A stretch of DNA of 64,000 nt from Apostichopus japonicus. Taxonomy: Eukaryota > Echinodermata > Holothuroidea > Aspidochirotida > Stichopodidae. Below are positions 1 to 57,656 of the stretch, one piece after another (the first letter of the stretch is position 1; each line of letters opens with the position of its first letter). The DNA lies in contig NC_092569.1 of assembly GCF_037975245.1 (NCBI RefSeq), positions 35,624,668-35,688,667 of the forward strand, written 5' to 3'. Position numbers and translations under genes: made by a program. Below the pieces are notes generated by a model that made no database searches, was not told where the DNA came from, and saw nothing but the letters and a program-made list of their open reading frames with translations.

Positions 1-31
1 ATGTTAGATCTACTTTCCGTACTCTACTTAC

Positions 32-113
32 CAACGCTTCCCGCCATCGAAGAATAAATGCAAATACCAAGAAGGAAGCAATGAAAGATACACGAAAACT
101 GAATTGCACTCAT
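32..113 (-). CDS. Gene A, first exon only: signal peptide of a fibrinogen-related secreted protein
   Basis: The minus strand has an ATG at 113-111, then 27 codons and one extra base (phase 1), then a consensus donor GTAAGT at 31-26. The peptide starts MSAIQFSCIFHCFLLGIC and is a typical signal peptide. It is almost identical to exon 1 of gene D (30914-30995), including codon phase and donor, and the flanking 500 bp are also homologous but inverted. By analogy with D, the rest of gene A (Cys-rich, Thr-rich, TIL, EGF and FReD exons) should lie to the left, outside the window. Whether it is functional cannot be seen. It could be an orphan exon left by an inversion, because the plus-strand sequence just to its right (from about 560) is a pseudogene of the same family. 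Confidence 0.75.
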
Positions 114-559: not shown

Positions 560-3018
560 ACTGAATCATTGTGAAACACTTTGTTTGTTATGGAAAGTTA
601 TAATGACGATACATTTACTACCAGCTTCTCTAGATATGAACCCTATTTGGCAATAAGCTCTATAGGTCATGGCCCAAATGGAAGAGAAAGAAAAGGTATC
701 AAACAAATTTGTTTTAGAATACAATTTATATATGCATATTTTCGGTTCAAACGAACCACTTAATTTTTTAGTGGCATTCGATGTTCTGTTATCTGTTTCT
801 CTAAACAGACTTACTGACATATAAAGCTTACTTTTTATATTTTTATCGTGTAAACAAATTTTATTTACTTATGTTTAGTGTTTTTATATACGTTAACGAA
901 TGGTAATAAGTCACAAGAAATGCCCGATATGAGTTTTCCTTGCTGGGTTTTATATTAGGAGCATTACATGCGAGTACTAAATTTAGATAATATTTTAATT
1001 ATAACTAATTCTTTCTAGGCAGAGTCACTGACATAAAGTTAAGTTCACCTTTACGTCCTAGTTGAAAGGTTTGAAGATTAATTTGGAAAAGCACAATTCG
1101 TTAAAGAAATACTTGAATTAATTTTATTTGTTGTTAGGTTGCATATCATCGTTACATGGATCAAACTAATTTTAACAAATTCATTCATTATAATGACTAC
1201 ATTATTTTACAACTACCATTGATGAGTCCCAAATACTATAATAATACACTACCTCAATCATGACATATACCTTGGGGGAAATATCAACACAAGGTGAAGT
1301 AAAACCGCATCAAGCTGGTTAGTTTTAAGTCTATATGCAATTTGCTATCCAAACATTCATTCGAATATTTCTAATTCTATATCTCTGACAGTTAGACGAG
1401 GTAGGTTACATGTTTTCTTAGATATTAATGTATAGGATTTAAAAAGTTAACATGCATTAGAACAAAAGAACAACATCTGACACTGATCATTTCTGTTTAC
1501 AGATGAGAGAATAAAAAAGGAAGCAACACTGGGTGGATTCAAATCAACGTGAACGCCCTCTACTGATGAAATGCGATCATTTATGTCAACCGGTAAAACG
1601 TCAACACCAACAAAAGGAACGTTGGAAACGGATATCAGTGACCGATCAACAACTGCGGCGCACTCAACAGATGGAATGCGAATATTACCATCAACTGATG
1701 AAAGGACAACGCGAATCAAGAGTTTGTTGTCAACAACAAGGATGCCTAAAACAGGTGATTTAAAAAATGTATACCATTAAGTCTAGAATTACTCCAGTTC
1801 ACAATTGGAGATACGATTTTAAGAAATAGATAGACATACGTGAATGCCCTACCGCCTGGCCTTCTCACATATCTATATAATATAACGTTCAAATGGTAAG
1901 ACACTATTGTAACTTACTTTATTTGACTAAACAGTAACATGTTTACATATTTGATAGCTTAGTTTCATCTCTCAATCAGATTATGTTCTAATAGCCAACC
2001 GATAGCGTTACCGCTCACAACATACATTCTTCCAATATGCTGAATTACCCTAGGTTTAATTGAACTTACAAATGTTAGAAACTAACTGAAGTGGTGAAAC
2101 TACAAGTAACGATTCTCTGTTGTTACTCTCATAATGATGGTTGCAATTATTTCTACAGCATTATAGAGACTTCTTCTATTTCATTTCTCGAGACTTGGAA
2201 TAACTAAAGGGATGGATTTGGTGATCTCGATTCTAGTTTCAGGCTTGGAAATGAGATATTGCATGTCATATCATCTCAGACAGATCAACAACTAAGAATT
2301 GATATTTGGTTCAACAAAACCAACGATGGCAGTGCATATCCTCAATTCAATCGGTTTCGAATTAGTTCCAAGACAACGAAATACGAAATAACTATTGAAA
2401 GTTACACAGTGAGCTTCGGTACGTGTTGTTCCTCGAAAAGCCAAAACCACTGGACAAGTTCAATTTAGTCTGATTTTGTTGACTGAATGTAAGACGTATA
2501 GTTACTTGTTTTTTAAGTTGCAGTGTATGTATCAGGTCCGCTTAGGACTTGTGGAAGAGAGAGAAGGTGAATTACTTATCTGTAAATGCTTAAACAAAGC
2601 ATCGGCAGTTACACAATCATAGGTTTAGGCCAATAATTGTTACCTTCATTCTTGAAGAGGGTAACCGAAGCCTTAGACACAATGTCTGTACCTTGTGTTC
2701 ACTTAATATGTGGGATATTAACAATGGTATTTAAAAAAATAGTATTCAACATACTATGTACGTGTCTCACATTACCTAGCTAACTATATAAAGATAATTT
2801 GGTACGTTTGACAAAAGTATTGTCATGATTTTAAAACATGCTTATTATAGCTTTCTGTTATATCAAATAGAATATGACTACATGGATTACCATCGAGATA
2901 TATCAGGACAATGACATAGCTTTACAAAGTTGTGCTAGTAATGAAAGACATTCCCGGCGGCTGGTGGTTCAATGCTTGCTATGGTTTTATGTTGAATTGA
3001 ATCTACGGTGAACCTTAG
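560..3018 (+). pseudogene. Pseudogene A' of a gene-D-like fibrinogen-related protein
   Basis: Collinear homologue of 31500-36400 (gene D) including introns, with internal deletions and several lesions. Recognisable pieces: a Thr/Ser-rich exon (1503-1754) with an in-frame TGA at 1550-1552; the middle FReD exon (2159-2418) with TAA at 2205-2207 right after the WNN motif; and the terminal FReD exon (2871-3018), which lost bases after DYHRD and is out of frame, although GGWWFNAC is still readable in another frame. The TIL and EGF exons and one Thr-rich exon are deleted, and exons 1 and 2 are missing. 560-1490 and 1755-2150 are former introns. The middle FReD exon retains motifs such as FGDLDSSF and LRIDIWFN. 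It cannot encode a FReD protein; age is moderate judging by the retained intron similarity. Confidence 0.85.
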
Positions 3019-4244
3019 GATACAAGTATATGTTTTTCATCAAATGATTACACTCGATTACAACTGTTCTGTTGTAGCAGTATATGAAAATGAAAACACT
3101 GTGAGGCTCTACTAACAGTTAGTGAAGTCACAACACCCGCGGATCATTAAAACCTTGGCTTGCTGGATGTCTTATTGCTAGGAGCAAAGAAGAGGAGGGG
3201 AGAAGATTGTGACGATTAATCTTAAAGAACATTCAATAAACTTAATAATCAGGTTATATTACATAACATAAAACACTAGAAGCTAAGATTATGAAGAAGT
3301 GAAAAGATAGGCTTATTACTCAAGGTTCCTTTCCATAAGACCACATCATGACAGGAGAATGAGGGTTGGAACTTCATTTCTTCCCAAACCAGACATTTTA
3401 CAAGGAACTTCTTTCATCTCGTAATGTGGATTAAAACTTTTTGATAAAAGCTGGTTACCTTCACTGTTATGCGATAATCCCAAAATAAAACCAACAAGGT
3501 TTGGCATCACATTGCTTTGTATTCTCTGTTATTATGAATTTTTACTCGAAATATATAAGACTTTTATTAAAACATTTTGAATTATTTTTGAATTAGTGTA
3601 TCATCGTTAAGGAAACGACTAATTATGATTCGAAAATACTTGTTGAAGGAGAGATTATGTGTACATAGGTAAGGTGCCATAATAGGAAGCTAGATTATGC
3701 CATACTTTCAATACCACATGTTCGTTTAATGTGCTAGTTCGGTCACCAAACATATTTTCAAGGTATAAGCTGGAAGACAAAGGAGGCATTTATAGAGAAT
3801 TAAAATTAATGCCAAATTATGATGTGACAGAATGCAGAATCTTAATTTACTATATCTGTGCATAAAATACCTCTAAAAACCGTGAATGACAATGAACTTT
3901 AGTATTGAAATTGTTTTTGTTGAAGAAGAGGTTCAATAAAATTGTTCTCTTTGAAAGATGTTTACACATAACTCAATTGGTTCCCTTCTTTTTCGGATTT
4001 TCTGCTTTCATCATCTTAATTTGCTGCTGCTGGAAATGCTCCAATTTTTTTCAATCTGTTAAGCCTACTGAAAAGCACTAAACGAATGAAGTAGTTTTAT
4101 CCAGGTTAAAGTAGTAGAATTTCGCTCTAAGTTATAAAATATGATGTATTTGCACTATTAAAAACACAATGATACTGATAATTGTCTTGATAAACACGAC
4201 TGGAGCATAGTCTAACGGAGTGTCCCAATTACACAAAATGGCGC
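3019..4244. other. Non-coding, nothing recognised
   Basis: AT-rich sequence between pseudogene A' and the LINE. No open frame with recognisable motifs, no clear repeats and no RNA gene were seen. Confidence 0.5.
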
Positions 4245-7130
4245 CTGTTGTAATTCTAATAAGCTGAGTACGGATGAAACAGATTGCTGTGATGGGCTTC
4301 TGACGTCTGCCGAGTGTGTTGCAGCTCTGAATTCATTTTCTATTGGTAAATACCCTGGTAACGATGGACTATTAATCAATTTTCACGCTAATACTAAGTT
4401 TTAATTGTCTGCCGATCAGAAACGTGCAATTATTACCTTAATTCCAAAGCATGGCAAGGATAAGGACTTTATTTAGAACTATCGTCCAATCTCACTCCTT
4501 ACCAGATATTCGCTAAAGTATTATTAACAAGAATTAAACTTGTTCACCCCAAAGTGATTAGCAATAATCAGACAGGTATCCTTAAAAACCGCTTTATTGG
4601 GAAAAAACATCCGCTTCGTTTAAGATTTGATTGAGTATTGTAACACGAGTAACAAAATAGGTTTACTGTTCCTCGTGGACTCCGAAAAAGCATTTGACAG
4701 TGTGATATGGGAGTTTATTTTCACCTTTCTTAGATTCGTTGGTATTGGGGAAAGTTGTATTAACTGGGTAAAAACTTTGTATTCTAACAATTCCGCCAGA
4801 ATCATAAACAATGTATAGGCTACTCATTCCTTCTCACCCCGCGGGGTACGCCAAGGTTGTCCCTTAAGCCCTTATATATTTATAATATGTGCCGAGGTTC
4901 TCACACTGTGTGTTAATGATGATATTAATAATAATAATAGCGATATATAATGCGCACATATCCGCCCTGCGGGGTACTCAATGCTCAAAATAGAGAAAAC
5001 AAAAGATATGGTAAAAGAACAGAAAAACTTTAATTAAATCTAAATCACTGAAAGTTTTACGTATGAGATGAGTGTTAAGGAGTTCTTTGAAAGTCAAAAT
5101 GCTGATGAACGACTTCAGTTTAAGTGGTAGTGCATTTGAAAGACGAGGGGCAGCAACGTTAAAGACCTATCACACCATTATTGTCTGGATCTCTGTTCCC
5201 GAAGAAGAAACATGTTGCTGGAAAAAATGTTTCCGTGATGGTGAGTAAAGCTCTAGTAACTCAGAGATGTAGATTGGAACCACTTTGTTCAGTGATTTGA
5301 AAACAATGATCAGAACTTTGTAGATGATTATTAAGGAAATTAGTAGCCAATGAAGTTCTCGAAGTATAGGTGTTATATGAAAGGATTTTCTTCACAAAGT
5401 AACAATACGTGCAGCAGTACTTTGAAGGCGTTGAAGTCTGGAAAGCTGGCATTGAGGTAAACCATACACAACTGAAAAACAAACTTCCTGAATACACCTT
5501 TCCATGGTTTCAATTGATGAGTCAATGATAATATTGCTATCTATGGTATATCCCTATTTGACAACAACATTAACATTTTACAATATGCGGACGGTACGAC
5601 CATCTTTTTAGACGGTAGTTATAATACTTTAAAATAAACTGTTAGTACTTTTTAGTACTTTTGAGAAGTCGTTGAGTCTAAAAGTCAATATGGACAAATA
5701 TTCCCTTTTATTCAGTAGGTAGAAAGACTCAGAGGGGACCATGGTTCCGTAACATATTTGGGTTGCACTGGTCTAATGGTCCTGTTGCTTTATAAGGCCT
5801 CTCGTTTACCAATAACAGATCAGACCTTTTTAGTTTGAATTTCACTCCTAAGCTTTCGAGGTTCAAACGTTTACTGAGTGTCTGTTCGCAGAGGGACCTA
5901 ACTCCAATTGGAAAAGTTACCATTGTTAAAACACTCGGTCTTTCACAGTTGGTTTATCTCTTTCAAATTCTTTCAAATTCCCCACATGAGTTTATTAAAG
6001 AACTAAATGCCATTATTTTTCCGTTTCATTTGGAGTTGGAAACCCGAAAAAAATCGCCGTTCCTCTATGATTGGTACTATAAAGTTTAGGTGGACTAAAA
6101 GTCTACACATACTCATTATGTTATATATAGTCTTAAGTGCACGTGGGTGAACAGATATAACGACAGTAGCGATAACATCTGGAAACTGTTTTTCGATTTT
6201 CATTTGAAAAAGTATGGCAAATCTTTTCTTGAACTGTAGTTATAAAATAGACGACATTCATATTTATGACGTCTGTCATGCATGGTCATTGCACTCTTTC
6301 ATTAGGCCTTATTCCAATTATGGTGTATAGATAACTTGGAGCAACTCGTTGATTAAAATTAACAATAAGATGGTATTTTACAACTCAATGTTCCAAAAAA
6401 GGATCAGGCAGGTGAAGAATCTGTTTGACAATGACAATCGCCCATTGTCAATACTGCGTTTCAAAGAGAAGTATAGATTAGATTATTGTCCATTTACTGT
6501 TTACTATGGAATTATTTCCTCTATCTCTAGAGCATGGAAGGATGGACTTGTGGAGGTTAACGAGGATATTGTTGATAGCTCTAGTGATTATCCCCAGTTT
6601 ATTCCCTCTGTGTCTAGACACATTTATATTAACCTTATTTATCGTGTTAATGGTCCTCCTGCGGCTGTAGCCAAATGGAATCTTTATTTCAGTAGCACAG
6701 CCACCCAATGGGAGAATACTTTTCAAGCCCCGTTTCACTCTGTCAAAGATTCCAAGATGCAATATTTCCAATTTCGCTTCCTCCATCGCATTATTGGAAC
6801 AAACCACTACCGCCCTAAAATAGGGCAAATCGATAACCCGCGATGTCACTTTTGTGGTCGCTATGATGAGACCCTGTTACATTTGTTTTGGGATTGCCCT
6901 ATTAAATCGAAATTCACTTTACATGTGGAGAAAGCTATTTTTGGCAGTCAGTTTATATTTTCGAAGAATGACGTATGCTTCGGGCATCATTTTTCTGTGA
7001 ATCACCCACATCATTTTTTCATATTTCATCTCAAGTACTTCATCTTCAGTTAAATATTACAAACACGGAAATGAGATGGAGGAAAAGCTTTTATTTTTTA
7101 CGAGCAGTTAAAAGACTCATTTAGTAATTG
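4245..7130 (+). mobile_element. Degenerate 5'-truncated LINE, L1/Tx1-like ORF2 remains
   Basis: The broken plus-strand frames follow LINE reverse transcriptase order. Near 4340-4380 there is KYPGNDGL; near 4430-4500, IITLIPKHGKD and NYRPISLLT; at 4627-4818 the block with LVDSEKAFDSVIW; near 4840-4875, RGVRQGCPLSPYIF; near 5575-5600 the catalytic box reads YADG instead of YADD. A thumb-like region follows (5835-6089, with RDLTPIGKVTIVKTL), then a C-terminal segment with a zinc-knuckle-like CHFCGRYDETLLHLFWDCP (6349-7053). Stops and frameshifts occur throughout, the 5' part with the endonuclease is missing, and a second repeat is nested inside. This is an inactive fossil. The clade assignment is from motif similarity only and could be another L1-like group. 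Confidence 0.85.
4912..5527 (-). repeat. Interspersed repeat nested inside the LINE
   Basis: Reverse transcriptase homology breaks after ICAEVL (about 4900) and resumes near 5527 with the segment before YADG. The inserted 0.6 kb starts with an (AAT)n-like tract and GCGCACATATCCGCC, which suggests the tail of an element inserted in minus orientation. It resembles a common class of marine-invertebrate repeats ending in AT-rich triplets after a GCGC motif; I cannot name the family. The sequence at 50000-50230 has a similar ending (GCGCTACA followed by ATT triplets). Confidence 0.55.
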
Positions 7131-10351: not shown

Positions 10352-13300
10352 TCAGAGAGGTTTGATTTTCATTTCAGTTGTAGCAATATCGCAGTCAGCA
10401 ATCATTCGTTCCCTGTCGTAAATGCACAGTCCAGCTTTCCACGGTTCGCCATACCTTCCATTGAAATTCGCCGTAGTACATGTAAAATTATCATACCCAT
10501 TGTACCACCAGCCAGCAATATGTGGTACCGTGCATTTTCGTGATGTACTGTTATCATTGTCACTGTCATATGTTGAAAACCCAACACCACGATGATATCT
10601 CATGTAGTCATATTCTGAGTACAATGAGAAGGAAAAGGTAACCAGCAAACAAAAAACATACATATTTCTTGTAATTTTTTTTTTCCAGGAAAAATCGAAA
10701 CTAAAAGAGCTCTCATCATCGTCTATTGTGACGATGGGGATGACAATGACAATGAAAATGACAATTGAAGACGAAGATGAAAACAAAGATGACGAAGATG
10801 ACGATGGCGACAATGATGACGATGTTGAGAAATTTTGATTTGATTTTTGACGTTTTTTTCTTATACGATGCTAATGCTCCTTAAATATCGAAAGTGCCAT
10901 TCGATCGTTGATCACAACAAACCAGGTTCCACACTCTATCATGAAGGTTTACAAATTTCGTTCATGGCAAATATCGTGCATTGCATTATAGGCTACGATA
11001 AAAATGTTTTACTCACCCAAGCTGCCTGTATAACTGCCGAGCTCTTCTAGTGCATAGTTGTTGACTTCTGAACCAATTCGAAAGAGATCATACTGAAGAA
11101 AGTGGGTAATGTTACTACTGCTGTTCTTAAATTCCATTCTCAGGGTGTAGTCCCGTTGGGCAGTTATGTTGGCTAATTTTTCGTTTCCTAGCCAATGTGA
11201 ATTAGAATCGCTTCTACGGATGCCATTTCTGTAATAATCCCAGTCATAAAAGAGACCATGGTGATCGACGCGGAGCTGAAAAAACTAAACAACAACAGCC
11301 AAAAAATAGGTTGATATCAGTCTGCTACTTAGTTGTGGCTCATTAAGGAAGTATTCAAGGTCCACTTGAAGCCAGATTAATCAAGAAAAGTACTTCTGTG
11401 ATGTTTGTATGGAATATATGAATGATCTATATATCAACAGGAAAAGACACTCTCCCCTCACATATCTAAGTGGATATTTGCAGCCCAGCCATATTATCAA
11501 AGTTTTTTTGCTCCTTGGAAATATATAGTTTCACTTTGTTTACATTATGTTTAACACAAAAGCACCAAATAATACTTGTTCTTCAACAATCTGTTCTTTA
11601 ACGTTGAAGTACGTAGGTAACGTAGTCCCACGTATTAAATTTCAGGGGCGGAGTATAGAAGTACAATGTGTAGTATGGTACATGTTATTTCTCTTATATA
11701 AAACGACAGCTATCATAGACATAAACTCAAAAGAAAGTCTTCTTACAGTCCATCCGTCTTTGCAATAAGCTTCGAAAGGTTCCCCTGACCATGTAAGCGG
11801 GTATATCAAGTGAAAACCTTCACTGATTACGCCATTGTCGTAAAGATCTTGGCAATCCTGTACACGTTTACATACGGTCCCATTCCCCATATAGTTCACG
11901 TTGCAATCGCACGACATAGTGCCATTATGGTTTTGGCACATCGCATGTTCACTGCATGTATAGTTTATGCATACAAGAACGTTATTCTCACATGAGCATG
12001 TTTCCGTGCAGTCCATCGTCACGATCCGCGATCGGCCATTCTTAATACAGAGAAAAGGTGAATAAATATGAATATAGTGATGCCACTTTGATGATATTAC
12101 GTAGATTACATCTCTGGAATAGTGTTCTAGTGTGTTCTCAAGGTAAAACATTACAACTTTAAGGAACTGTTTTTCATATGAGCTTCATTTAGTCCGTCCA
12201 GATATATTTGAGGGCACAGGTGTTCGATTAAGTCAGGCCGGGCGTGGACGGAGTATTACTTGGAAAGTTCTTGGCTTCACTTCTGATTGGCTCTGTGGAG
12301 CAATATGCTTGTTAATAGTTCTTTTTTTTTGGAGGTGTGTTCCACAAAATAGTTAGCAAATATGATCCCATCATCGCATAGTCTCCCTCGCACACCCCTC
12401 GCACACACTTTCGACAAATTTGGATTGATTATTGAATACGAAGGGTCTCACCATGATTTTTTACTGTTTATTGAACATGAACAGCCATTAATAATATCGT
12501 TTGATTAATCTTACATTTTTATGTTTTTAATTCAATTTCATGATTTAAGAACAGAAGGAGAGAATGAATTATCATAAGATCAACAGGTATTTTGTGTCGT
12601 CCATTGTAGATTAATTACTTTGTAAATTAATAAGATTCGTAGCTTGATCACTATCGAATCTCAAATCTGTTCAGTACATTTACCAGAACAGTAAAAGCTA
12701 CTTGTAGCATGACAATTGCAAAGAAATAGCAAAGGTGACATCATTTGTTTAATATCACCTACTATAAAGACATGTCCACTGTATCCGTCAATGAAATTCA
12801 AATATGTGACATTGGCAAGTAGAGAAACTTCCCTTTTATCTTTGTTTTGTAAAACCCTACAACTGATATTTGTTAGGATAGAGAAGACTGGTTTTGGCGG
12901 ATACGATTGTTAAGGAACGCACATGATAAATATACTAATAACAGTTTAAGAATACCGGTATGACTCCTCCCGTTTCGTGATAACACCCACAATCACTCTC
13001 CGGTATGCAATTCTGTCCGAGTAATAAAAAGCCGTCTGGACAAACACATGTTCTTCCTCCAGTACAGTTTATATGGCAGCCAAACCACCCATAAGGGTCT
13101 TCACATGTACCCTGGCATACACAGTCAGCAAAGACTTGATTCAAAGGACATTGTGGCGTGGTGGTCGCACCTGAAAATAGAATATGGAATATGTCATATT
13201 TCATCATGGTTTTGTTAAGGCAAGTTTCCCTTCGGTGTCAGCTGCTTCGATCATTCACATATTGTGGTAGTGCGATGTTGTACACGTATACTAGTAGTAA

Positions 13301-15504
13301 CAGTGAAAATGGATTTAAGTCTCACCTACTGAGTTTATACAGGAGGATAAGAAATGAGCTTAAAGTAAACACAGACCCTGGCCCTCCCGTCAACCGAACA
13401 TCATACCCAACTCGAGAAAAATGGTACCATATACTTAGTCTCACGACAATAGAGTTAAGTTCTGCAGTTCTGAATTTAAGGAAATATTCACCAAAATTCA
13501 GTCCACATATGCTTATCAATTAAACTTACTTGTCTTTTGTATGTGCTATAGTTTACAAGAAAGACAAAACTAACACTATTCAAAACGCTAGTGAGATCAG
13601 TGCTGTCATATCTAAGTGAAGCATGGAAAGTGACAAAGATAGAGGAGCAAAAGTTGGATGCTTTTCAGTTCAAGTGCATTCGAAGAATACTGAAGATACC
13701 ATGGACCGAAGTAGTTAGCAATGACAGAATTATGCAGCAAACAGGCATAAATAGAATAAGTGTAGAGATACGGAGACGCAGATGGAATTGGATTGGTCAT
13801 ATTATGTGGAAGGAGACAGGAAATCATGCAAGAGTAGCAATGGAATGGGCACCAGAAGGAAGGCGGAAGGTTGGCAGACCCAAGACTACTTGGAGAAGGA
13901 CAGTAACTAAAGAGAGAGACATGAGTGGCTGGAGAAGCTGGTCCGATGTGAGAAGATCTGCAGAAGATGACAGGGATGGAAAGAGAGCATCTTGACCTTA
14001 TGTAACAGACGTTACGGAGAAGATTAAGAGATTAAGAGTACAAACACGACTGGGACAAGCCTATAGATATGTATCATCTAACTACGGGTTGAACTGTCAA
14101 AATATATCCTTTATTAACTTGTAGTTATTAACAATTTTATCCATGTTATATGGATAGGTTATGAAAAAAAAAATTAGGAATTTAAAACATTGAAGTTATT
14201 AATAAGAGTTCACGAGGTTATTGGTTTCATTGTCAAGATGTGATGTCACACTTTACATTGAAACCTTGAAAAAAAGGAAACATAGAAGTGCAATGAATTC
14301 ACAAATGACAAAATGACAATGCCCTATTGTAACTTTTGAACAACAGTATCTCTCACACGGAAGAGGATTTTCGTTAGATTGTTGTCTGAATTGTCTATCA
14401 CAGTGATTTCTTATTCACAAGTTACATTTGACAATTGTGTTGTTTTTGCTTCATAACGTATTTATCAAGAAAAAGAATGGATAACAGATAAGTCTCATAC
14501 CAAAAACCCAGCTAAACCAATTTGAATAAATAACAGCAAAGACTGTGTAAAAGAAATAAAGTTACCACTTAATTGAGGATTCCGATGGGAGAGACCTTTC
14601 ATGTAATTCTCGAACTCGCATATGCCTGTTATTTTAAAGAACAAATGCACGTAATAAGAGAATGAAAAAAATGAAAACAAAGACTATCTATACACTAATC
14701 TTCATCACCTCTCATCACCAAAACTGCCTAATAACTCAGAGACACCCATACACACAGAGAACACAGTATCTACTATAAATCTTCAAATTTTGTACCACAG
14801 TAAAAACCGGATCGTGCTATAAATCGGTAGCATATGCTATTAGGATTACAGTGGGATCTAAGGATATGTTTAATCCCAACAAATCCAGTTAATGCAGTTT
14901 TGTGGATTACATGTATCCTCAGTTCTTACTGTAATCCTAATAGCACATGCTACCGACTTATCAGCACGGTCCGATTTTTACTGTGGTAGAAAACTTCAAC
15001 ATTTACAGTAATTACTGTAATCTCTATGTTAATCGGTTGTCAGGGAAGCTCGTTACATTTCAATCACAACAGTACATCATGAGATTGGTCTAGAATAATT
15101 TTATATCAGATATATTAGCTGTTATCATCACTGTGGTTAGGCCAGTAGCCCGTGCTCGCTGGCAGCAACATATTGGGCGAGATGTAATTCCAGATAACAA
15201 GCAACGCAATATTCAAGTGAGTGTATTTATCTGCAAGTGTACTTATGTCTCACAACTTTCATAAGAAAGTTGTTTGAGAAAGATAAACTTAAAAATCATG
15301 GTACATTAATACAAGTTATATAAGCAGACAAGTTAGCTTTAAGTTAATGGAAGATTTAGTTGATATGCCTTTTACATTATAAACCAAATGTATAAAACAA
15401 AATAAAAATAATCAAACCTTACCCATAGCAAGCGATATGTGGACGATATTAGCATAAAGTAAGACAGCAGTTATTGCACGCTTCCGATTGGCAAAGTTCG
15501 CCAT
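10352..15504 (-). CDS. Gene B: secreted TIL-EGF-fibrinogen-domain protein, five exons, apparently intact
   Basis: Exons on the minus strand: 15504-15423 (signal peptide, MANFANRKRAITAVLLYAN...), 13170-12956 (TIL domain with CPLNQVFADCVCQGTCEDP and CVCPDGFLL), 12040-11747 (EGF-like module with CSEHAMCQNHNG, then the FReD start DCQDLYDNG and YCKDGWT), 11275-11017 (FReD centre with HWLGNEKLANITAQRDYTL), 10614-10352 (FReD end with YHRGVGFSTYDSDNDNS and AGWWYNGYDN, stop TGA). All junctions have GT/AG sites and compatible phases (1,0,0,1), giving 1113 bp and 370 aa without internal stops. The DSDND stretch fits the Ca2+ site of fibrinogen/ficolin domains. The Cys-His pair usual after the GGWW motif is not present in its normal form, so ligand preference may differ. 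Expected role is a secreted lectin, with the TIL module possibly inhibiting proteases; this is family inference. Intron 1 holds a LINE fragment and a MITE. Expression and 5' UTR are unknown. Confidence 0.85.
13555..14060 (+). mobile_element. LINE ORF2 C-terminal fragment in gene B intron 1
   Basis: The plus strand is open from 13591 to 13995 with motifs LDAFQFKCIRRILKIPW, RRRRWNWIGHIMWKE and EGRRKVGRPKTTWRR. These are typical of the extreme C-terminus of RTE/CR1-like non-LTR reverse transcriptases, here without the catalytic part, so the copy is 5'-truncated. It ends in a short repeated segment (AAGATTAAGAGATTAAGAG near 14022-14040). It lies antisense to gene B within its first intron. The clade is uncertain. 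Confidence 0.75.
14751..15040. mobile_element. Palindromic MITE, copy 1
   Basis: The two halves are near-perfect reverse complements: ACCACAGTAAAAACCGGATC on the left answers GATTTTTACTGTGGT on the right, and the outer parts (ACAGAGAACACAGTA versus TACTGTAATCTCTATGT) also pair. A second copy lies at 16746-17040. No coding capacity. It lies in intron 1 of gene B. Confidence 0.75.
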
Positions 15505-43777: not shown

Positions 43778-43780
<3 letters not shown>

Positions 43781-44020: not shown

Positions 44021-44034
44021 TTTATTCCTTTATT
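44021..44034 (-). promoter_or_regulatory. Candidate polyadenylation signals of gene C
   Basis: Two AATAAA hexamers on the minus strand (44026-44021 and 44034-44029), about 280 bp after the distal gene C stop codon. Plausible by position only. Confidence 0.4.
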
Positions 44035-44315
44035 CTTTTGTGAGACTCATGCAATAATCAATTTTCAAACTATCAAACAACAGTACGCTGGTTAATATTA
44101 ATAATTTGACATCAATTTCAATTAATATCTCCTCACTCCCTTAGAAATTAACTATTTAGTCGAATCGTCCCGTTTGTAATTTTTGTTGCTTTTCTTCTTC
44201 TTTCTTGCCTATGGCACGTCCAGCTATCCGATTCTCGAAGATCTGTATGGATATTTTCTTATTTCTAAGTAAAAACTTTTTTTTTGGACAGTGTGTTATT
44301 TATACAGTGTTTTGT

Positions 44316-47300
44316 CTACACAGGCCGTATTTTCATATCTGTGTATTGCAGGCTGCATCCGTAACCATTCAAACTATAACTTTCCCAGTACATGTGCGTT
44401 CCTCGAGTAGAGCCGTCGTAGTCTCCGTTCAGGTGAGAATAAGCGCAACTAGCGCAGCTGTCGCTGCCAACGGGAAAATAATAACAATATTAACTATAGT
44501 TGGGACAGTCAGACCGACAATAAGAAGCAGAATAATAACGTCTACAGTCCCATTGATCATAGAACCACCAGGCTCCTCGGTGTCTCTCAGCGCAGCGGTA
44601 GCTGCTCCATCCATCGTTGTCCCGGTCTTTTGTACTGAACGGTTTATTGTTGCTACCAGACATACTATCATAACCTGCAACAAACAAGAAAGAGTAAATA
44701 AACCGGTCATTTTATATACTTTGAACGAATCCAATGTCGGATGCTAGATAGAGGGCAGTGCGTTTTTGTCCTACCAACATGAAAACGTCAGTTCCGGGAA
44801 TGTTTTGTTTTTTGTGTTCAATATTCACGATACATAAGGTGGTATTTTGTCTTTGTAATGGCGTTTTTATATATTTTTGTTGTTGTTCCGTTTGAAATAC
44901 AGCACCACAACAGGAGTAGAATACAGATGGGGAAACCACTTTAACCAAATACTAGGTTTGGGTTACTAGAGTCGCTAATATCGCTCTTTATTAATATTTA
45001 TTCTTCCGCAAGTATTTACAATACTATTCATTCATTTCATTATTTGATTGTTATTTCTAAGTTCACAACTGATTAGTTTCCTACTCTGTCAAAACTGTTG
45101 TAAATTTCTTGTTTGTTGAATAATATCACCCTGTTCTACTGTTTACAGGGTATGCAGGGTGTTATAGTCATCGATTGGTCAATTCTTTAACCTATATCTA
45201 TAACACTGTGTAAGTTTTGTATCTTTCAACCTGAGCTCATACGTCGGACTATAAACGTAGATTGAAATTAAACTATACACAAATCATGAAATCAATACTT
45301 TTAAATGAAGAATAGAACCGACATTGTATGAACGGAATTTACTATTAATGTAGTAGCTAATATTCTAGGTTTCGACAAAGTAACCAAAATTCGATGTATT
45401 TACACTTATGAAAATCTTGAATGATATTGATTATCGTCTTTTTATTATTTAGTTCTTATCGACATGTACTTCTAGTCTCGTACGTATAACTTCTTTGAAC
45501 AGACTGATTGATCGATTAAAATTTATCGAATCTATACAGACGAATATTTCAAATAAATAATTTCTGATTCATCTATTTCAATGTTCTATGCATGATAAAC
45601 CCTAGATGACTTTTCACATAACATGATTAAATTTAAATAGCGCCTCAAAGTTTTCACATATGAGAATCATCGAATATACTTACCACTTAAAGTCACACTA
45701 TACAGTAACGAGAAGGCACACGTGGCATGCTTCCAGGTACTACTAATATGATATTAACCCCTTTGTAAGTTTGAAGTGATGCGAGTTTGGTAGACAACAG
45801 CGAGCGGCAAGGCAACAGACATTTACGATAATTTTCAGAATACTCGTTTAGGTTGGGATGATAGTGATGTTGAGATTTACTTTCTCTGTGTCAGAAATAC
45901 ATGGACACTGGCTAGTATTATAATATCTACTGCCATAGTTTTATATATTGTTAGGTGCTTGTTACGTGCAAACACGGCCAAGAGACTTGTGTTGCCAATG
46001 GAAAGCCGATCTTATCGTCTGCTTCTTATGTCTGTACACATTGTATACAGTCCTGAAACCTACGTGCGTTCCAGCTGTAGTTCAAACGCGTGAAAGAAAA
46101 TAGCAATGTTTGGAATTGAAAATTGCTGTGAACCTTGAAATTATATATCATTTAGCCAGGAATGCGGTAGCTATGAGATCAGGACATTAGTTGTTGCAGA
46201 ATAAACATTGAAGGAGTACTACAATAATTCATTCTATACGGGAGCACGTCACATGATCCTCCTTGGTTGACATGTTTTTTTTTTTTTTTTTTTTTTGGGG
46301 GGGGGTCTTCGCGCGTCTCCTAACTGACGTGATCGGCCCAGATTTAAGTATGCGTCAATGATTAGAACCATCAATTACTCACCTGTATTTCCCCTGTGTG
46401 ATCCAACTGATAGTCGATACTTGTCTGCTTCGTGATTAATGCTAAAAGTCGAATAGACGGCGTATTTTGATGATGAGCCGGAGTCCCTTAGATCAATTCG
46501 AAGCTGGTAAGTTTTCTGGTTGGTCATAGAGTGGATATATTTATTACCTAGCCAGTGGTCATGATTTTTATTACCGAAACCGTTCTTGTAGTCCGACCAA
46601 CCACTATAAAAGTCAACGTAGGCACTCGATCGTCGCTGGAAAACCTATGAAAAAAAAGAAAAAAAAGTGAATCCAGCTATGTAATCTAGTTATCCGTAAG
46701 AGCATAACATCCAACGCCGTTAGATAGTTAACAAAGATATGGATACTGTGAGAGGGAGATTATTTGCAAAAGTGTTTTGTTTCTTGATTTTGGTTCTTCC
46801 TTAAATGGTCAAGTTCATCTCCACGAGATCTGCAGTGCATCATTTTGAGTAAAGTAAAGTATAATGTTAGGAAGTTAAGAATTTAAATCCTAAAATGTTT
46901 GTGTAACTCACCGTCCATCCTCCTCCGTTACTTCCCATCTCACAGTAAACCTGAATGCCGCTTGGCCAACCATCAGGGTAAATGGTGTAAACACCATCAC
47001 TGCGTGTACCGGAAACATAAAGCTCGTGGCAATCTTTTGGGAGGCTTGTGCACGTCACTCCGTCCCCTTGGTAGTTTGTATTGCAGTAACATTTACGGAC
47101 ACCACTCTTCGTAGCACAGGTTGCGTGACTACTACACTGGTAACTCTCATCTACAAGCCGGTTGTTCCTACAAGTTGATTTCCGTGTACATCTTGAATTG
47201 ATGTAAAAGTGGCCCTCCTAATTTAAGATATAAAGCAAAAAGAAAATTTACAACTAAAATGAATAATGAATTTGCGGTTGTCACAGTGAAATGTACAGGA

Positions 47301-50300
47301 TTTCAACGGTAGGTGGCCAATGATAAATCCCCTCGAATGATCTAGGAATAGGTATGACCTTTATGAAAGTTTTATAAAGTGTTTGAAGCCAACTCCGATG
47401 TAGGGAGCGAAGAGATCCGCCTTTATAAAAAGTGGCTGCAAATATTGCATTCAACGGCTTATTGCGACTATATATCAGGCCTACAAATAATTCTAACCGC
47501 AAGACTGTGAAAAAAAAGTATCTATGGATGTTTGTGTCAGGCGTATGAGTGGATGCAGACTTGTAGGGAGTGGCCTCGTGATTCCCGACTAAACGTAATA
47601 GTTCCCTCGACTGACAGTTTTGACTGATCTGGAGACCCCCCAAAAAATGGGTAAACGGCCCCTCCCCAACCAGGATGCACGCCACTCGAGTATCTGTAAA
47701 TGTAATGTTTTTATCGACAAGTGGTCTTTGAAGCCAACTCCGATGTAGGGGTCCACGGGGTTTGACATGAAAAGGTAGCATGTTGCATTTTTTGTCAAAT
47801 GTTGCATTAAAACGGCCTATCGCGACTATACATTAGGCCAACAATTGGTTTTCACCATAAAACTATCGTTAGTAGTATCCAAGCATTTTTGTGTGTCAGG
47901 TTTATAAGGGAATGACATCTGTAGGAGTAGTCTTGTGCTTCCTGACTAAATGTAAGTAAAATATTTGCTTCTTATTATGTGAAAAAGTCATTAAGAGCAA
48001 AGCACTTAAAATGAAAGAACCGTACTGACCATTAGTACACCTCCTTTGTCAGCAACGAAGCAGTTGCATTGGTTGAGAGGGATGCATTGTTCTTGCTGTC
48101 TCAGATAATCACCGACACAAACACATTGCTCTGATTTTGTGCGAGAGGTAGCTGAGATGCAAGTCTCAGGGTCGTCACAAGTCCTCTCACAGGTCTCATC
48201 GCTAAATATCTCATTGGCTGGACACCATTCAGGGATTGTTTCTAGAGAACAGGAAAGAAAAAGAAATGAAAATAATAGTAACCTGGTACAGTCACGACAA
48301 ATATGACATGTGGCATAGAATAGTCTGTCTTCATTACTTAAATACGTAATTGTCAGAAGGTTAAAGGAAAGGAACATACACTCAGAAGCTGCTCGAATAA
48401 ATGTAGAACATTTTAAATAGGTAGTGGCCGTTCCCTAGTCACATTAATGTTTCTATTCATTCTGATAACGAGATAAAATACACCATCATTTGTTGTGCAG
48501 TTAGTCTGAAACCAGGTAGTCATGGCTTGTTTCTGTTTCCGAGTTCTCTCGGTGTAAGTATACTGCTTTCTGACAACAATGATAATTACTAACAACATTA
48601 AATTTCTTTTCGTTGGTTGTTCTGATCAAACTGGGAGATGAACCTCGTATAATTGTAAACGTTCTGTTGTACTAACGTTAGGAACGGTTCCTAGTTCAGA
48701 GCCACGGTTGGTTTGAGTACGAAGCAGTCTTGTAGTGAGTGCGTAATCACACCGTTTGGCTAATGAAGGCATTTTGGAATTCTAGTATGGACACTGATGC
48801 AAGATTAAGTGTTTAAACTCGCACTAAAAGCTTTTACTTGCACTCATATCATATCATATTGTAATTGCTACGATATGTCTTGTAGCGCCGTTGTACTAGC
48901 TGATATACTATATGTATACTCGTACTATAAATATTGTAGCAGTTTCTTCAAAACATATTTGACATGTCAAATTTACTTCCAAAAGATATCTTCGTTTTCA
49001 GATTAAACCTTTCATTTTCTGCACGTTAACGTTTGACATTAATGAATGGTCACGATTTTTTTTATTTTTCTCTGCTTTATATTTAATAATAATGTAAAAG
49101 ACACTTACCATCTGATCTTTCGAATGTTCCTAAACTAGATATATAATAATCCCCCGATTCATCTGAGATACGAAACTCGTCGTATGTTACATGGTAAGTT
49201 TCTCCAGCAACGTTCTCAAAGTCCATTCGCAGTTGGTATCGCTTTTGATTTGTTAAGACGGCAATTTTCTCATTTCCGATCCAAAACTCACTCCCTAGAA
49301 AGCCAAAGCCATTTCTAAAGTCTTTCCAACTTCTACTAAAATTTACAGAATCTGATCCTCGTCGCTGTAATACCTTCAAAGAATATCAAAGAAATTAAGC
49401 GCTAACTAGGACGTGATTGAATTATTATTATTTGTTCCCTACTGCAATGCGATTTGTTGCTAACAGCTATAACACACATATTTTAACTTATATTTCTAAC
49501 ATCAGTTTTTAGTTTGGGCTAGATGTTTGCAGTTTCCTTGGAAGAAGAACTACACTGTACATAAGTACAATCTGGTGCTTAAATTCCACAATATTAAAAT
49601 AATTGATTCAAACTTTCGTTTCGATAAAAAAGCTAGATTCTATTTGAAATAATGACTTTGTATTACATCGCTATATATTGCTGCAATCAGAATCTGAAGG
49701 AAATTTGTACAAAACTATTTAAAGTTGAAAAGAAAACATCAAGTAATCAGCCATACCGTCCATCCACCAGTATCAAGATCATTATTACAGTAAGCCTCAA
49801 ACGGTTCCGGATGGCCATCTGGTTTAATACGATACACTCCAGATGTATTGTGGGTAGAGTAACATGCATTCGATACTTCTTTGCAATCTCTCGGATACGC
49901 AGGTTGTTGAAAAACAAAGTATGAAGAACCTGGATGGAAAGTAAAACAAAGTTATCATTTATTGTGACTGTAAAATCATTTTAGCTAACAAAAAATCGCC
50001 TAAGATGCTTTATCTCAATTTCTTCTCTCCACCCAGGGGTTAAATAGGTACATGTGAGGTAACTTGTCATTAGGCGCAATATATAGCTGCAGCTGTCTGG
50101 TTGGATTGTCTCTGGGCCAGGATATCATTGAACAGGGGTAATATAACGTCTGTAAAGCTCTTTGAAACCTATCGCTATTTAAAAGCGCTACATTAACCGA
50201 ATGTTATTAATATTATTATTTTTACGATAAGACTTTTTAGTTAATTGTAAGAGAACTGGTTTTGTTACTAAGCGAATTAAGGCAATACATCAGTTTAAAT

Positions 50301-53300: not shown

Positions 53301-56300
53301 TGGCCCACATTTCATTATAACTGAAATCTTTACAGAAGCCCTCGAACCCTCACATGACGACAAAAATATTCTTCCTGTATATTTTTGGTTCACAGCCATT
53401 CAAACTTATATCTACGATGCAAAATGGTAGAAGTACGTTATTGCACAGCGAATGTAAGACACGCTTATTAACGCTACCTCGACAAATCTACGTAGTACAA
53501 TAAGAAGAATAGACGTTTAGCATTAAACTTGTATCTTTTATAATATGATGATCATGATAATGATGAAAATTGCAACAGAAAGGAAAGAGAAAAAGAGGAA
53601 GTTAAGGAAGAAACGAGGAATTTAATATTTCAGACCTAGTCATTCATGACCAAAATTCCATAATGTGATATTGCTCTGCCATAGGGGATAAAAATAAATA
53701 AATACTCGGCTTAAATGTGTAAAAGTATGAAGGATCGGAAGCAGCCAAAACAAATGCATTTCTGTCTTGTTTGTTAATTTCGAATAATTATGATATAAAC
53801 ATGTTAGAACAGCCGAGCATATGAATGTTCAAAGTTTATGAAATGACAATGTTTTCTGTCAAGACAAAAACACATTGTATAGCATTTCCAGTAGTGAAAT
53901 AGACAATTCTCTGAATAAACCAGGAAAAAAGCATAAGATCATTCCTGCAATTTTTGCAGTTCTCTGTTTTTTTTTTGTCTTCATCAAATTTGTGAAAATG
54001 TTTCAAAACATAGCTTGCACATGGGCGATATTATCAATAGTTTTAACACGTCTAACATGTCAAGAGTTACTTTTTGGCACGAGTTTTTATCCTTCTAGAA
54101 GAATATGGTCCTTGGGTACAGAAAATGGTATCACACTTACCTCAAGTCATAAGAAATTAAAATCTACATTTTATACTTTGCTGTTGCCAACAAAGTAAAG
54201 TACACAGTATAGTACTATCTCAACAAAGATATTGAAGCGGTCAAGGCGATTTGTTTGGGATATATCCAAGGTTTTTTGTTGTCGTCGATAAAGTTATCCA
54301 GGAAGCACAGACGTTGTGCGACGTTATTGTTGTATCTGTATGAACAATTGTGTTTATTTTAACCAAATGCTGAGTATCACATACCAATTGTTCCCTTGAA
54401 TATAATGCTCGTTCGAAAGCCACAAATTATATGATATGAAGGAATTTAATTAGATATTCTTCAACATATAAAGCGAATTATTACCATACATGGAGTAGTA
54501 ATAAATGTTATGATAATACTTTCTAGTTTTTGCAACGTGTTAGAAAAGAGACCTTTAAATAAAGTGTTATGTATTTTATGTTGTTTAATTTGTTAAAGTC
54601 TATAATCGATGTTGTTAAAGTAAAGGGAGAGTTTCCTTTGTATACTGAATTATATTACATATTACATGTAAACGATATAAGAAATGTTAAGTTATATACT
54701 ACACCAAATAGCCACATCACGAAGGGAGGGTGTGAGTCGGGTATAGGAGGGAGTCATTGAGGGCAGAGAAGAATTGTTGAATTCAAATTGAGACTATTAA
54801 ACGTTACAAGGAAGTTTACATGATCAACAACTGGTGTGGAAATCAAAGTAAACTACAATATTTGTGATTAGAGAATTAACAGATAACTTAAAGGATCATG
54901 AATGTCTTTCTTTCTCGTAGTAGTTTATTTCCAGGTTGAACAGTTGTTTTTGTATTACTTTGAGTACACAAATACTAATGAAACATCTTACTACTCTCTA
55001 TTTTTAGTATGATTTTATAACGTCTATTCTATTGGAAAGAGCCTTCCAATCCACTTAATCTTCTAGTTTATTAAATTAAGGATCGTGTAATAACATTATC
55101 ATTTGAGAACAAGCTCTTACAATACTATCAGTTGTAATTATTTCACTAAATTGCTAATGCTTTCTAGACGTAAACGTCATTGCACATTTTATTATAATAA
55201 AGCGACAGTTAAATTCGAAATACTCAGTTAAACATATCGCACACATTCGACAAACAATACGATTCTTTACAGGTGTTTCATTTTAACTCACAAGAATCAA
55301 AACAGAAGTTAAAACAGTGTGCAATGTTCATAAAAGTAACTTAAACGAAAAGTTATTTTATTGCTTCTTAAATTAATTAATTAAATGCCATATGAGCATA
55401 TTTAGGGATGTGCACATTTTTTGTTGCTGTTTTAGTTAGCTAACGATATATAAAAAATATCTCAATTTAGTTCCCCATTCACAATAAAAATCGTATTTCT
55501 TCCTTTCAATTAACGTATTATCTTGGCATTGTAAAACGACATTAAACTCTGAGTCGGTATCAAGGATTTACGTTTAGTCAAGTTATATTACTTCTCGAAA
55601 AAATAATTGGGGAAATCAATATTATTTAACTGTCGCTTTAAAAGGCTTGTGACTGAGATTTTTCTTTACAAACTTTATCATTTTAAATAAAATTAATGAA
55701 CATGTCTTACATTTATTCTGCTCTAATATCCATCATATTTAAACAACGGAGTGTTGGGATTAAATTCCCTAGGAATATCTAACAATATATAGCCTAACTG
55801 AAGGAAATGAAAACACGAAAAGAGAGCAAAAAATGGAAGCTAGCCACTAAAATCGCCGGAGAAATTTTCATGATCGCGTATATCATACCATTCTTTTCAG
55901 TGCCTGCAAAATAGCATTTGTTATTTTCTTCTAGTCCTTTATCTTTGATTATTCGTTCTGAAATAAATCCGTGTAACTTAATTTTTTTTATTTTCAGCAT
56001 TACTTTTGTACATTTCACTTTTTTTAGTTTCCATGGATTAGTTTTAAATTAGATTGACGTGTACACCAGTTGGATTTATTGTTATTCAACTTTGTGTCCT
56101 TGAATATGTACATGTACAAGAATCGTGATCTTAATATGATATTTTCAAAATACATTTCAAAGTACCTTTATTTTTTGTTGCAGACTGTTTGTTTAAACTT
56201 TGGCACACATATAACAATATATTTTAAAGATATCTCTATGAACATGTGAAGGAAGTAAATATTTAGGTGCTCTTTAGAAATTTAAATCTGAAAAGGTCAC

Positions 56301-57656
56301 GTTTTGATGATTGTTTGCAACAATATAATCAAACTTAAAAATGAGTATTTTTTTCATATTTGATTAAACCTGAACCACCCTTTCAAGTAATAGATATCTT
56401 ATTTAAAGGATGTACCTTGTCATGATAGTTTTGTTCAATGTATATATTTACCCAACTGTTCACTATTTGAAATGGAAGTTAATAAAGCATCTTTGTGACT
56501 GGATTATCATATAGAAATATTTTGGTTTTGATTCGTTAACGCAGATGTTGCTTTAATGTATATATAAGGATAACTTGAACAAAGACGAGAAATAAAATGT
56601 CTGTTCGGAAATCATATCAAAATAACAGAGCTGAAAAAGGAAGTTGCCTTTATGAAGGTGAAAAGTCAAATTATTCGTATGTAATTTATATCAAAAAATA
56701 AAAACAAGGCATTATAACAAATGAAAACAAATGATTGAAAACATTTAACGATACACAAAGTACCGAATATTGCTCTGTATAAAGAGGGAATCTCATGATT
56801 GGATTTTTAACAAGGAGAAAATTTAACTCATGAATCTAACAATAAAAAAAAAAAATTAAAGTTTAGTTTTCAGTATCGCTGAAATAAATGAATTTCTGTT
56901 TTTAGTTATCGTACTCGTAGCCCAAATTATGGAGTATAAACTTATGAACTAGAATTATCTACAAGTGTATTTTAGCTCACTAATTCATAATATGAATTGG
57001 GTGCTGTAACGTGTTGGTATGTATCTGTGAAAGGTGGGGTTAGCTATTGGAGGGAAACCTTGTAAACTGACGTGCTGTAAAATATATGTGGGGAGCGATA
57101 TGCTCATAAATTTGAAAAGAGATTACTTTTTCCTGGCCATATCACGAAACTTAATTGACTTTTAAAAATTGGTGTGTAACGAAAACACGTTTGAGATGTA
57201 TTAATTAGCTTTTCTTTTAAGGATTTTATATGTGGACAAATTTTTAAGAATACTGTATTTAATCAAAGAAGAACCGATTAGATGTAATCTTTTGTTTTTA
57301 TTCCAATATATGTGGTTAAATTAAAGACGTTTTGTTATTTTTCGAAACACTGCTGTCCTTTCTCGAAGTTAACATTTCTGAATATTTTAAATTGATAGTC
57401 TTCTAACTGAAATTTATCAGGATTTTTTATCGATACATTCCTCATTCTTCGAAGACACTTCACTTTGTCACATAATTCAATATCAACAGAGTTAGCTCAA
57501 TAACACATTGACGCAACTTATTTTAATTTCGAAACAGAAGATATTCAATAGAGTAATAAATAAAGTATATTGAATAAAAGAAACACTTACCATTTCTGTT
57601 GCAAACGAGCTCCAAATCGTCAAAACAGTCAAAAAAACGTTGAAACACTTCTCCAT
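44316..57656 (-). CDS. Gene C: FReD(partial)-TIL-EGF-FReD secreted protein, stop codon in last exon
   Basis: Minus-strand exons: 57656-57591 signal peptide ([19 protein letters not shown]); 50838-50808 a 31-bp micro-exon; 49929-49757 FReD-1 start ([16 protein letters not shown]); 49373-49109 FReD-1 centre ([37 protein letters not shown]); 48241-48030 TIL domain ([28 protein letters not shown]); 47217-46912 EGF-like ([12 protein letters not shown]) plus FReD-2 start ([19 protein letters not shown]); 46644-46383 FReD-2 centre ([30 protein letters not shown]); 44674-44316 FReD-2 end ([23 protein letters not shown]). Phases fit at each junction (0,1,0,1,0,0,1). FReD-1 has no C-terminal exon, so it lacks the Ca2+ site and ligand pocket. 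An in-frame TAA at 44492-44490 ends the product at 499 aa; without it the frame runs to TAG at 44318-44316 (557 codons). The 6.7-kb first intron makes the link to the signal exon the least certain part. Confidence 0.75.
46276..46306. repeat. T-run followed by G-run in a gene C intron
   Basis: About 21 T then about 9 G. Confidence 0.8.
47378..47960. repeat. Diverged tandem duplication in a gene C intron
   Basis: GAAGCCAACTCCGATGTAGG occurs at about 47387 and 47730, and both are followed in order by related blocks (CGGCTTATTGCGACTATA / CGGCCTATCGCGACTATA; GTGTCAGGCGTATGAG / GTGTCAGGTTTATAAG; CCCGACTAAACGTAA / CCTGACTAAATGTAA). The unit is about 340 bp. Frames here are not genes. Confidence 0.75.
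50000..50230. repeat. Interspersed repeat end with GCGC motif and ATT tail
   Basis: Contains GTAAAGCTCTTTGAAACC, AAAAGCGCTACATTAA and an ATT-rich tail, a pattern typical of dispersed repeats in marine invertebrates. Family not named. Confidence 0.4.
51339..52566. mobile_element. hAT-like non-autonomous DNA transposon
   Basis: The left end TAGTGTTGTGCCGATATTG and the right end (reverse complement CTAATGTTGCGCCGATAATC) form imperfect terminal inverted repeats. Both ends are followed inward by clusters of CCGATAT/ATATCGG words. About 1.2 kb with no transposase frame. The terminal sequence style is that of hAT elements; I could not establish an 8-bp target duplication by eye. Confidence 0.6.
53998..54198 (+). 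CDS. Possible small secreted protein, 66 aa (hypothetical)
   Basis: The plus-strand frame from the ATG at 53998 starts [20 protein letters not shown], which looks like a signal peptide ending in a small-residue/Cys region, then a basic stretch and a stop at 54196-54198. The frame is open further upstream to an ATG at 53875. It lies in intron 1 of gene C on the opposite strand. No family is recognised, no splice context is obvious, and chance is a real possibility in AT-rich DNA. Confidence 0.2.
   Translation: MFQNIACTWAILSIVLTRLTCQELLFGTSFYPSRRIWSLGTENGITLTSSHKKLKSTFYTLLLPTK
54199..55197. other. Non-coding part of gene C intron 1
   Basis: AT-rich, no supported gene or repeat. Confidence 0.4.
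55198..55640. mobile_element. MITE with 17-bp perfect terminal inverted repeats
   Basis: TAAAGCGACAGTTAAAT at 55198-55214 is the exact reverse complement of 55624-55640. The 443-bp interior is AT-rich and non-coding. TA at each outer end could be a TA target duplication as in Tc1/mariner-type MITEs; this is inference. Confidence 0.65.
55641..57590. other. Non-coding part of gene C intron 1
   Basis: AT-rich; no supported gene, RNA or repeat was recognised. Confidence 0.4.

Follow-up and report, generated by a model that had tools for sequence, protein, structure and literature searches.

Background

Defence is presented as the primary role of invertebrate FReD proteins, which carry the Pfam domain Fibrinogen_C (PF00147), in the title of a review cited in PMC6321704, and sea-anemone FREPs are reported from mature stinging cells, where they may be components of the venom (PMC12549020). 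The genes of snail FREPs are clustered, 39 of 40 lying in a 5 Mb region (PMC10903818), and FReM of Biomphalaria is described as an N-terminal region followed by an EGF-like unit and a C-terminal FReD (PMC7588048, PMC10903818). The present study deals with a stretch of 64,000 nucleotides of contig NC_092569.1 (hereafter the window), which was taken as animal DNA on account of its introns, microsatellites, retroelements and 35% GC. About 50 kb of it holds eight copies, mostly broken or partial, of one gene family encoding TIL, TILa, EGF-like and FReD units. We favour, with moderate confidence and from the DNA alone, the reading that this is a birth-and-death cluster of one animal gene family whose products would be secreted, mucin-stalked, lectin-like proteins residing in mucus or at a surface.

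By its predicted domains the family appears to be a variant combining FReD with TIL-TILa, the nearest described kind being the EGF-FReD proteins such as snail FReM. The FReM descriptions consulted mention no TIL, TILa or serine/threonine-rich (Ser/Thr-rich) stalk, but this separation is one of descriptions, and the family could prove to be FReM itself. Snail FREPs share with it the clustering of FReD genes, but in the strict mollusc sense they have one or two immunoglobulin domains before the FReD, whereas the present family has another neck and stalk; in the same way, ficolins, FIBCD1 and tachylectin 5A have a FReD by sequence, but ficolins are defined by a collagen-like stalk before it, whereas one of our loci (C) has a Ser/Thr stalk. 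Neither an immunoglobulin domain nor a collagen-like stalk gave a match at E 0.01 in any of the four spliced chains (loci B, C, D and F), of which only that of C has a known start, those of B, D and F being covered in part. FCGBP also has TIL followed by TILa, but FCGBP and the gel-forming mucins carry them in a VWD-C8-TIL-TILa assembly, whereas the family has a single TIL-TILa and a C-terminal FReD, with no match to VWD or C8 in the four spliced chains and the 30 frames scanned with Pfam, out of 266 stop-to-stop frames of at least 55 residues in the window. Rotifer FReD proteins have a low-complexity N-terminal region with occasional threonine-rich stretches before the FReD, but the text consulted reports no conserved domain in that region (PMC8878817). 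In the ctenophore Mnemiopsis, C-type lectins combine a lectin domain with TIL and EGF units according to a figure legend, the C-type lectin domain standing in place of the FReD (PMC11797021). No description of the order TIL-TILa-EGF-FReD was found in the open-licence literature, judged mostly from listings, and none of the passages retrieved pairs TIL or TILa with FReD.

Results and discussion

Eight loci of one gene family

Family exons were sought by tblastn and with profiles (hidden Markov models) built from the window's own exons, the reversed window serving as control. Members of these own profiles score high by construction; A, G and the middle exon of E are non-members. Eighteen exons reach at least 26.6 bits, well above the control, whose best own-profile score was 7.0 bits (with a profile other than TIL) and whose best TIL score was 4.4 bits. 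These are the TIL exons of B, C and D (114-129 bits), the TILa-EGF-FReD start exons of the same three loci (148-163 bits) with a FReD-start exon lacking EGF in F (42 bits), the FReD-middle exons of A, B, C, D, E and F (82-142 bits) and the FReD-end exons of A, B, D, E and G (27-154 bits). A nineteenth exon, the fossil TIL of G (two pieces in 20052-20209, minus strand), scores 7.4 bits with one piece and 7.0 with the other, on a level with the control; it was accepted on a tblastn match to the TIL exon of B (E 4.5e-5) and on its same-strand position upstream of the clear end exon of G (18099-18318, minus strand, own-profile score 33.5 bits, frame breaks), which is the exon that the preliminary description had recognised as decayed at 18108. 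Two weak own-profile matches, to TIL at 27786-27941 (5.1 bits, within the end exon of E) and to TILa-EGF at 1634-1759 (3.4 bits), were dropped as chance.

At least seven loci had been announced on both strands; seven were found (A, B, G, E, C, D and F) and an eighth, H, was added in the form of a signal-peptide exon, the rest of that locus lying, if present, outside the window. A and C are on the plus strand, B, G, E, D, F and H on the minus strand. The letters are those of this analysis; only the exon at 18108 had been given a coordinate of its own, and the matching of the other loci is ours. TILa, the Ser/Thr-rich exons and the conserved signal-peptide exon, present at 30914-30995 (plus strand) and 113-32 (minus strand), are new here.

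Six kinds of exon were counted per locus: signal peptide, Ser/Thr, TIL, TILa-EGF-FReD start, FReD middle and FReD end. B has four, from TIL to end, all open; C has five open ones, from signal peptide to middle, besides a small tentative exon and one Ser/Thr copy that has decayed; D has four, from TIL to end, with a stop in the end exon; F has two, the start without EGF and the middle. A retains three (Ser/Thr, middle and end), all broken, E two broken ones (middle and end), G two fossils (TIL and end) and H the signal peptide. A search for the missing exons with unfiltered profiles over seven distinct stretches (upstream of B, D, E and F, downstream of C and of F, the gap of A and the interior of G, the stretch downstream of F being that upstream of D) gave at best 0.5 bits, against 132 bits for the positive control.

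Domain order and gene structure

The most complete open chain inside the window is that of B, on the minus strand. It consists of a TIL exon at 12956-13170 (Pfam TIL 34.8 bits, AG acceptor and GT donor, phases 1/0), a TILa, EGF-like and FReD-start exon at 11747-12040 (phases 0/0), a FReD-middle exon at 11017-11284 (Fibrinogen_C 49.5 bits, phases 0/1) and a FReD-end exon with its stop codon at 10352-10614 (Fibrinogen_C 41.2 bits, reaching profile position 220 of 221). C, on the plus strand, has the TIL exon at 34214-34419 (34.3 bits, phases 1/0), the TILa, EGF-like and FReD-start exon at 34995-35285 (phases 0/0) and the FReD-middle exon, the last one found, at 36100-36367 (Fibrinogen_C 88.2 bits). 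In D, on the minus strand, the TIL exon lies at 48030-48241 (Pfam TIL 19.0 bits, below the cut-off; own-profile score 113.8 bits, D being a member), and is followed by the TILa, EGF-like and FReD-start exon at 46912-47217 (Fibrinogen_C 41.2, EGF_3 33.7 and TILa 26.5 bits, the last below the cut-off), the FReD-middle exon at 46383-46644 (Fibrinogen_C 94.2 bits) and a FReD-end exon at 44316-44674, in which an insertion carries an in-frame TAA at about 44490, flanked by two Fibrinogen_C matches, one of 24.5 bits and a second of 16.0 bits that stays below the cut-off. A mini-intron spanning this stop was rejected, no donor of good consensus being visible by eye.

Every internal exon border modelled for B, C, D and F shows AG or GT, and the introns measure 267-1708 bases. 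The entry and exit phases are 1/1 for Ser/Thr exons, 1/0 for TIL, 0/0 for the TILa-EGF-FReD start and 0/1 for the middle, and the end exon begins in phase 1. Wherever an exon exists, B, C and D agree in order and phases, with a phase-0 junction after TIL, another after the start exon and a phase-1 junction after the middle, so that the common order and intron phases claimed previously hold, with the EGF-like unit borderline. F (minus strand) deviates, its FReD-start exon at 49757-49929 (Fibrinogen_C 32.1 bits) beginning in phase 1 without TILa and EGF, ahead of a FReD-middle exon at 49109-49373 (79.6 bits). The donor of this middle exon (phase 1) could join the acceptor of the D TIL exon (phase 1) in phase, from 49373 to 48030, giving a chimaeric chain.

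In the spliced chains, Pfam FReD scores are 113.7 bits in B, 105.7 in C, 170.5 in D and 123.1 in F, all above the cut-off of 22 bits; in B it is a single match over profile positions 3-220 of 221, and in the three others the match is partial. TIL (cut-off 24.5 bits) passes in B (30.7) and C (30.0) and fails in D (16.9), and TILa (cut-off 27 bits), which is adjacent to TIL, passes in B (37.7) and C (31.6) and fails in D (25.3). The expectation that Pfam would find TIL and FReD was thus borne out for FReD in B, C, D and F and for TIL in B and C, though not for TIL in D. EGF_3, at a cut-off of 28.5 bits, passes in D only (31.4; B 26.8, C 25.2), which makes the EGF-like match borderline and bears directly on the likeness to FReM, defined by an EGF-like unit before the FReD and no immunoglobulin domain. 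Compared with the single exon, splicing moves the start of the TILa match in the profile from position 16 to 1 in B, from 11 to 1 in C and from 13 to 6 in D. The score changes from 30.4 to 37.7 bits in B, from 30.9 to 31.6 in C and from 26.5 to 25.3 in D, and since the gain is clear in B only, evidence for the TIL-TILa join other than the splice sites is good for B but weak for C and D. An AlphaFold model of the TILa-EGF exon alignment had a mean pLDDT of 49.4 and was not used.

Signal peptide and Ser/Thr-rich stalk

The 5' part of the gene is seen in C, where a signal-peptide exon (30914-30995, donor GTAAGT, phase 1), a tentative small second exon and two open Ser/Thr-rich exons precede TIL. 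The small exon (31163-31258) is open, with AG/GT borders and phases 1/1; it has no homologue within the window, and the intron separating it from the signal peptide would be just 167 bases. The first Ser/Thr-rich, mucin-like exon (32487-32738, 40% serine plus threonine, AG/GT, phases 1/1) has a homologue in A, the second (33483-33641, 46%, phases 1/1) is homologous to the first (tblastn E 9e-8), and between them a decayed copy with one stop lies at 33033-33182 (E 4e-9 to the first). These three exons being mutually homologous, stalk length can change by exon duplication. Their counterpart in A, at 1505-1753 on the plus strand, has one in-frame stop and 67% amino acid identity to the C exon (E 1e-31). 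A scan upstream of B, D and F gave no Ser/Thr exon; its rows upstream of D overlap the TIL exon of that locus and it also missed the stop-bearing exon of A.

The signal-peptide exon of H (32-113, minus strand, donor GTAAGT, phase 1) has 81 of 82 bases in common with that of C. The single mismatch compares with 45 in 458 positions of the aligned flanks (one-sided Fisher p 0.0036, the exon having been chosen post hoc). Taken plainly, both exons appear to have been kept by coding selection; gene conversion could also account for their likeness. As the copy at 113 is directed to the left, it would be the start of a gene lying off the left end of the window. A first exon of C at 31126 was replaced by that at 30914 because the copy at 113 showed the latter to be conserved; the spliced C chain used for phases and Pfam starts at 31126, and the domain results, lying downstream, are unaffected.

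The preliminary description extended the cluster to 57656, and this far end did not survive. The feature there is a signal-peptide-like open reading frame whose phase-0 donor does not fit the phase-1 acceptor of the first FReD exon of F, and it was rejected as the start of that gene. No exon linking the two was seen in 49.9-57.7 kb, either by family profiles or among the 23 top-scoring exons proposed by a codon scan that recovered 10 of 14 training exons and could therefore have missed one.

A probable mucus-held lectin, or possibly a structural protein

If joined in one transcript, these exons would encode a signal peptide, a Ser/Thr-rich stalk, adjoining TIL and TILa modules like those of FCGBP and mucins, an EGF-like unit and, at the C terminus, a FReD carrying a calcium-site motif. 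The stalk, built from repeatable phase-1 exons, would probably be O-glycosylated and, with the cysteine-rich neck, would space and anchor the FReD head in mucus or at a surface. The ligands of this head would most likely be glycans or acetylated groups, carried either by microbes or by the mucus of the animal itself. Its lectin character is predicted from two elements, the FReD match and the calcium-site motif DxDND, read from the sequence as DSDND in B and DRDND in D; an immune or defence role is plausible in view of the review title and the clustered snail FREPs cited above, although the sea-anemone proteins show that other uses exist.

Among solved structures the TIL-TILa region is best matched by FCGBP (8rde), with whole-chain E values, summed over several modules, of 2.5e-15 for B and 4.2e-17 for C; the best single FCGBP module gives 35.0 bits (E 1.3e-7) with B and 32.7 bits (E 6.4e-7) with C. 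The B FReD is nearest to angiopoietin-1 (1.2e-23), then to ficolins. That of D, compared as far as the last aligned segment ahead of the insertion, is nearest to FIBCD1 (3.8e-46) and ficolin-1 (3.6e-43), and FIBCD1 is reported to bind acetyl groups on chitin (PMC3908420). No relatives of the family were found in viral contigs. Prokaryote genomes yielded one FReD piece (L001:3001-3255), 41% identical to the family, on a contig of a Myxococcota metagenome bin, which is either host contamination or a bacterial FReD.

Several observations count against a secreted mucus lectin. Many FReD proteins are not lectins, the B FReD scores best to angiopoietin-1, and the Cys-His of the FIBCD1 alignment is Cys-Thr in B. 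Composition bias weighs heavily in the FCGBP scores, at about 25-30 bits for each module. EGF_3 is under the cut-off in B and C. Splicing clearly raises the TILa score in B only, and in all three of B, C and D it costs the TIL match 2 to 4 bits. The Ser/Thr stalk is seen in A and C only. One strand has 4 signal-peptide-like phase-1 open reading frames and the other 5, where 10 random sequences gave 3.3 per strand on average, and at this near-chance level only conservation supports the exon at 30914; a candidate first exon of B at 15504 (minus strand) was rejected as within chance, which leaves B without a supported one. None of the eight loci is complete from signal peptide to stop within the window: D carries its in-frame stop, F lacks both ends, and family profiles found no end exon for C in 36370-44300 nor for F between its middle exon and the D TIL exon.

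The chief rival, which we consider rather unlikely, is a structural role, in which the product would be a mucus, cuticle or bioadhesive matrix protein and the FReD would serve cross-linking rather than defence. The closeness of TIL-TILa to FCGBP and the Ser/Thr stalk are both in line with it, and comparable assemblies are on record: a flatworm adhesive protein combines C-type lectin, VWD-C8-TIL and EGF units, sea-star Sfp1 is listed with VWD, C8, lectin and EGF units (PMC6410801), and placozoan mucocytes are described as expressing an intelectin and a VWD-TIL-C8-PTS mucin-like protein (PMC11452194). Against it stand the lack of VWD and C8 in the frames and chains scanned and the turnover in copy number with dead copies, which is generally commoner in recognition families.

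Age of the copies and their possible activity

Between B, C, D and F the proportion of synonymous differences (pS) is 0.75-0.90 and that of nonsynonymous differences (pN) 0.34-0.48 in all six pairs, computed on the TIL, start and middle exons (start and middle only for F) with the end exons left out. Synonymous saturation with far fewer nonsynonymous changes marks these four as old copies under long purifying selection. Only A, C, E and H show recent duplication; in the self-comparison they are parts of a single duplicated block that is partly inverted. The pair C and E is young, with a synonymous distance dS of 0.062 and a nonsynonymous distance dN of 0.053 (one exon, 84 codons, two stop codons skipped), and the pair C and A is older (dS 0.34, dN 0.139; one exon, 82 codons, one stop skipped). 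The rapid turnover proposed for the cluster therefore applies to this sub-group, judged on one exon, but not to B, C, D and F, which are saturated and constrained.

Birth and death are both visible, in the segmental copies and in the stops and frame breaks of A, E and G. In A (plus strand) the FReD-middle exon at 2172-2420 has an in-frame stop (own-profile score 82 bits from profile position 8, its first residues unmatched), and the FReD-end exon at 2870-3048 has frame breaks and stops (26.6 bits, also aligning with E in the self-comparison). In E (minus strand) the FReD-middle exon at 28391-28645 has two in-frame stops (103 bits, 86% DNA identity to C over 520 columns), and the FReD-end exon at 27750-27989 a frame break and a stop (125.6 bits, E being a profile member). 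A direct repeat of 4.7 kb, 92.7% identical between 36699-41368 and 59340-64000, begins 332 bases past the last exon of C, and its second copy reaches the window end; six pieces of it gave no Pfam match above the cut-off.

All copies in the window could be dead, the cluster being a graveyard without present function, an explanation that we hold to be unlikely. Copies had been described as ranging from intact to fossil; broken, fossil and open ones are present but none is intact, with lesions in A, D, E and G and no end exon in C and F. Conversely, four exons of B and five of C (first Ser/Thr exon through FReD middle) are open and bordered by AG/GT. When neutral substitutions, but no frameshifts, were simulated on 258 codons of B, the share of runs that stayed free of stops was 15% at 0.05 substitutions per site, 3.5% at 0.1 and 0.4% at 0.2, which speaks against an old death, not a recent one. 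As no full model from signal peptide to stop lies in the window, working copies may lie elsewhere, the gene headed by H, beyond the left end, being the best candidate.

Possible protease inhibition and possible independent variation of the modules

The module called trypsin-inhibitor-like in the preliminary description is indeed a TIL, but it is not to be read as an inhibitor, since TILa follows it and FCGBP TIL-TILa match best. Ascaris-type inhibitors have their reactive site in the loop between the fifth and sixth cysteines. That TIL is a working serine-protease inhibitor, coupling recognition with protease control, is very unlikely: B and C retain the full set of ten TIL cysteines, with a short fifth-to-sixth loop that differs between them (HIN and FKS, respectively), but D has eight, having lost the second and sixth, and the nearest solved relatives are FCGBP modules, not small inhibitors. 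The pair lost in D, which also lacks two TILa cysteines that B and C have, corresponds to one disulphide of Ascaris-type inhibitors and would be a coherent loss.

It is highly doubtful, though conceivable, that the cluster represents a new class of recognition proteins, in which FReD head, TIL neck loop and stalk length, through the repeatable phase-1 Ser/Thr exons, would vary independently from one copy of the cluster to another, and in which a copy deprived of its end exon would splice onward, the F middle into the D TIL, to give chimaeric two-headed proteins.

Other elements of the window

Two inverted retroelement copies occupy 23526-26908, with arms 99.6% identical over 1361 bases and (TA)n tracts near both ends; this very young pair has a GIY-YIG match in one arm and a reverse transcriptase beside the other, and we take the element to be Penelope-like. 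Remains of a non-LTR (long terminal repeat) retroelement lie at 5796-7050, with a zf-RVT match at 6331-7050, and presumably also at 13552-13992, where no Pfam match exceeds the cut-off. Two related palindromic elements of about 300 bases are found at 14743-15040 and 16737-17046, and a tRNA-like gene with anticodon aca at 43401-43475, between (AT)n tracts, may be a tRNA-derived repeat.

Conclusions

Birth and death can be followed here within one small cluster, in which old constrained copies stand beside young broken ones. If expressed, the family would bring together parts of mucus proteins, the TIL-TILa pair and the Ser/Thr stalk, and a FReD recognition head in one protein, which would be a sensible design for a mucus-held lectin.

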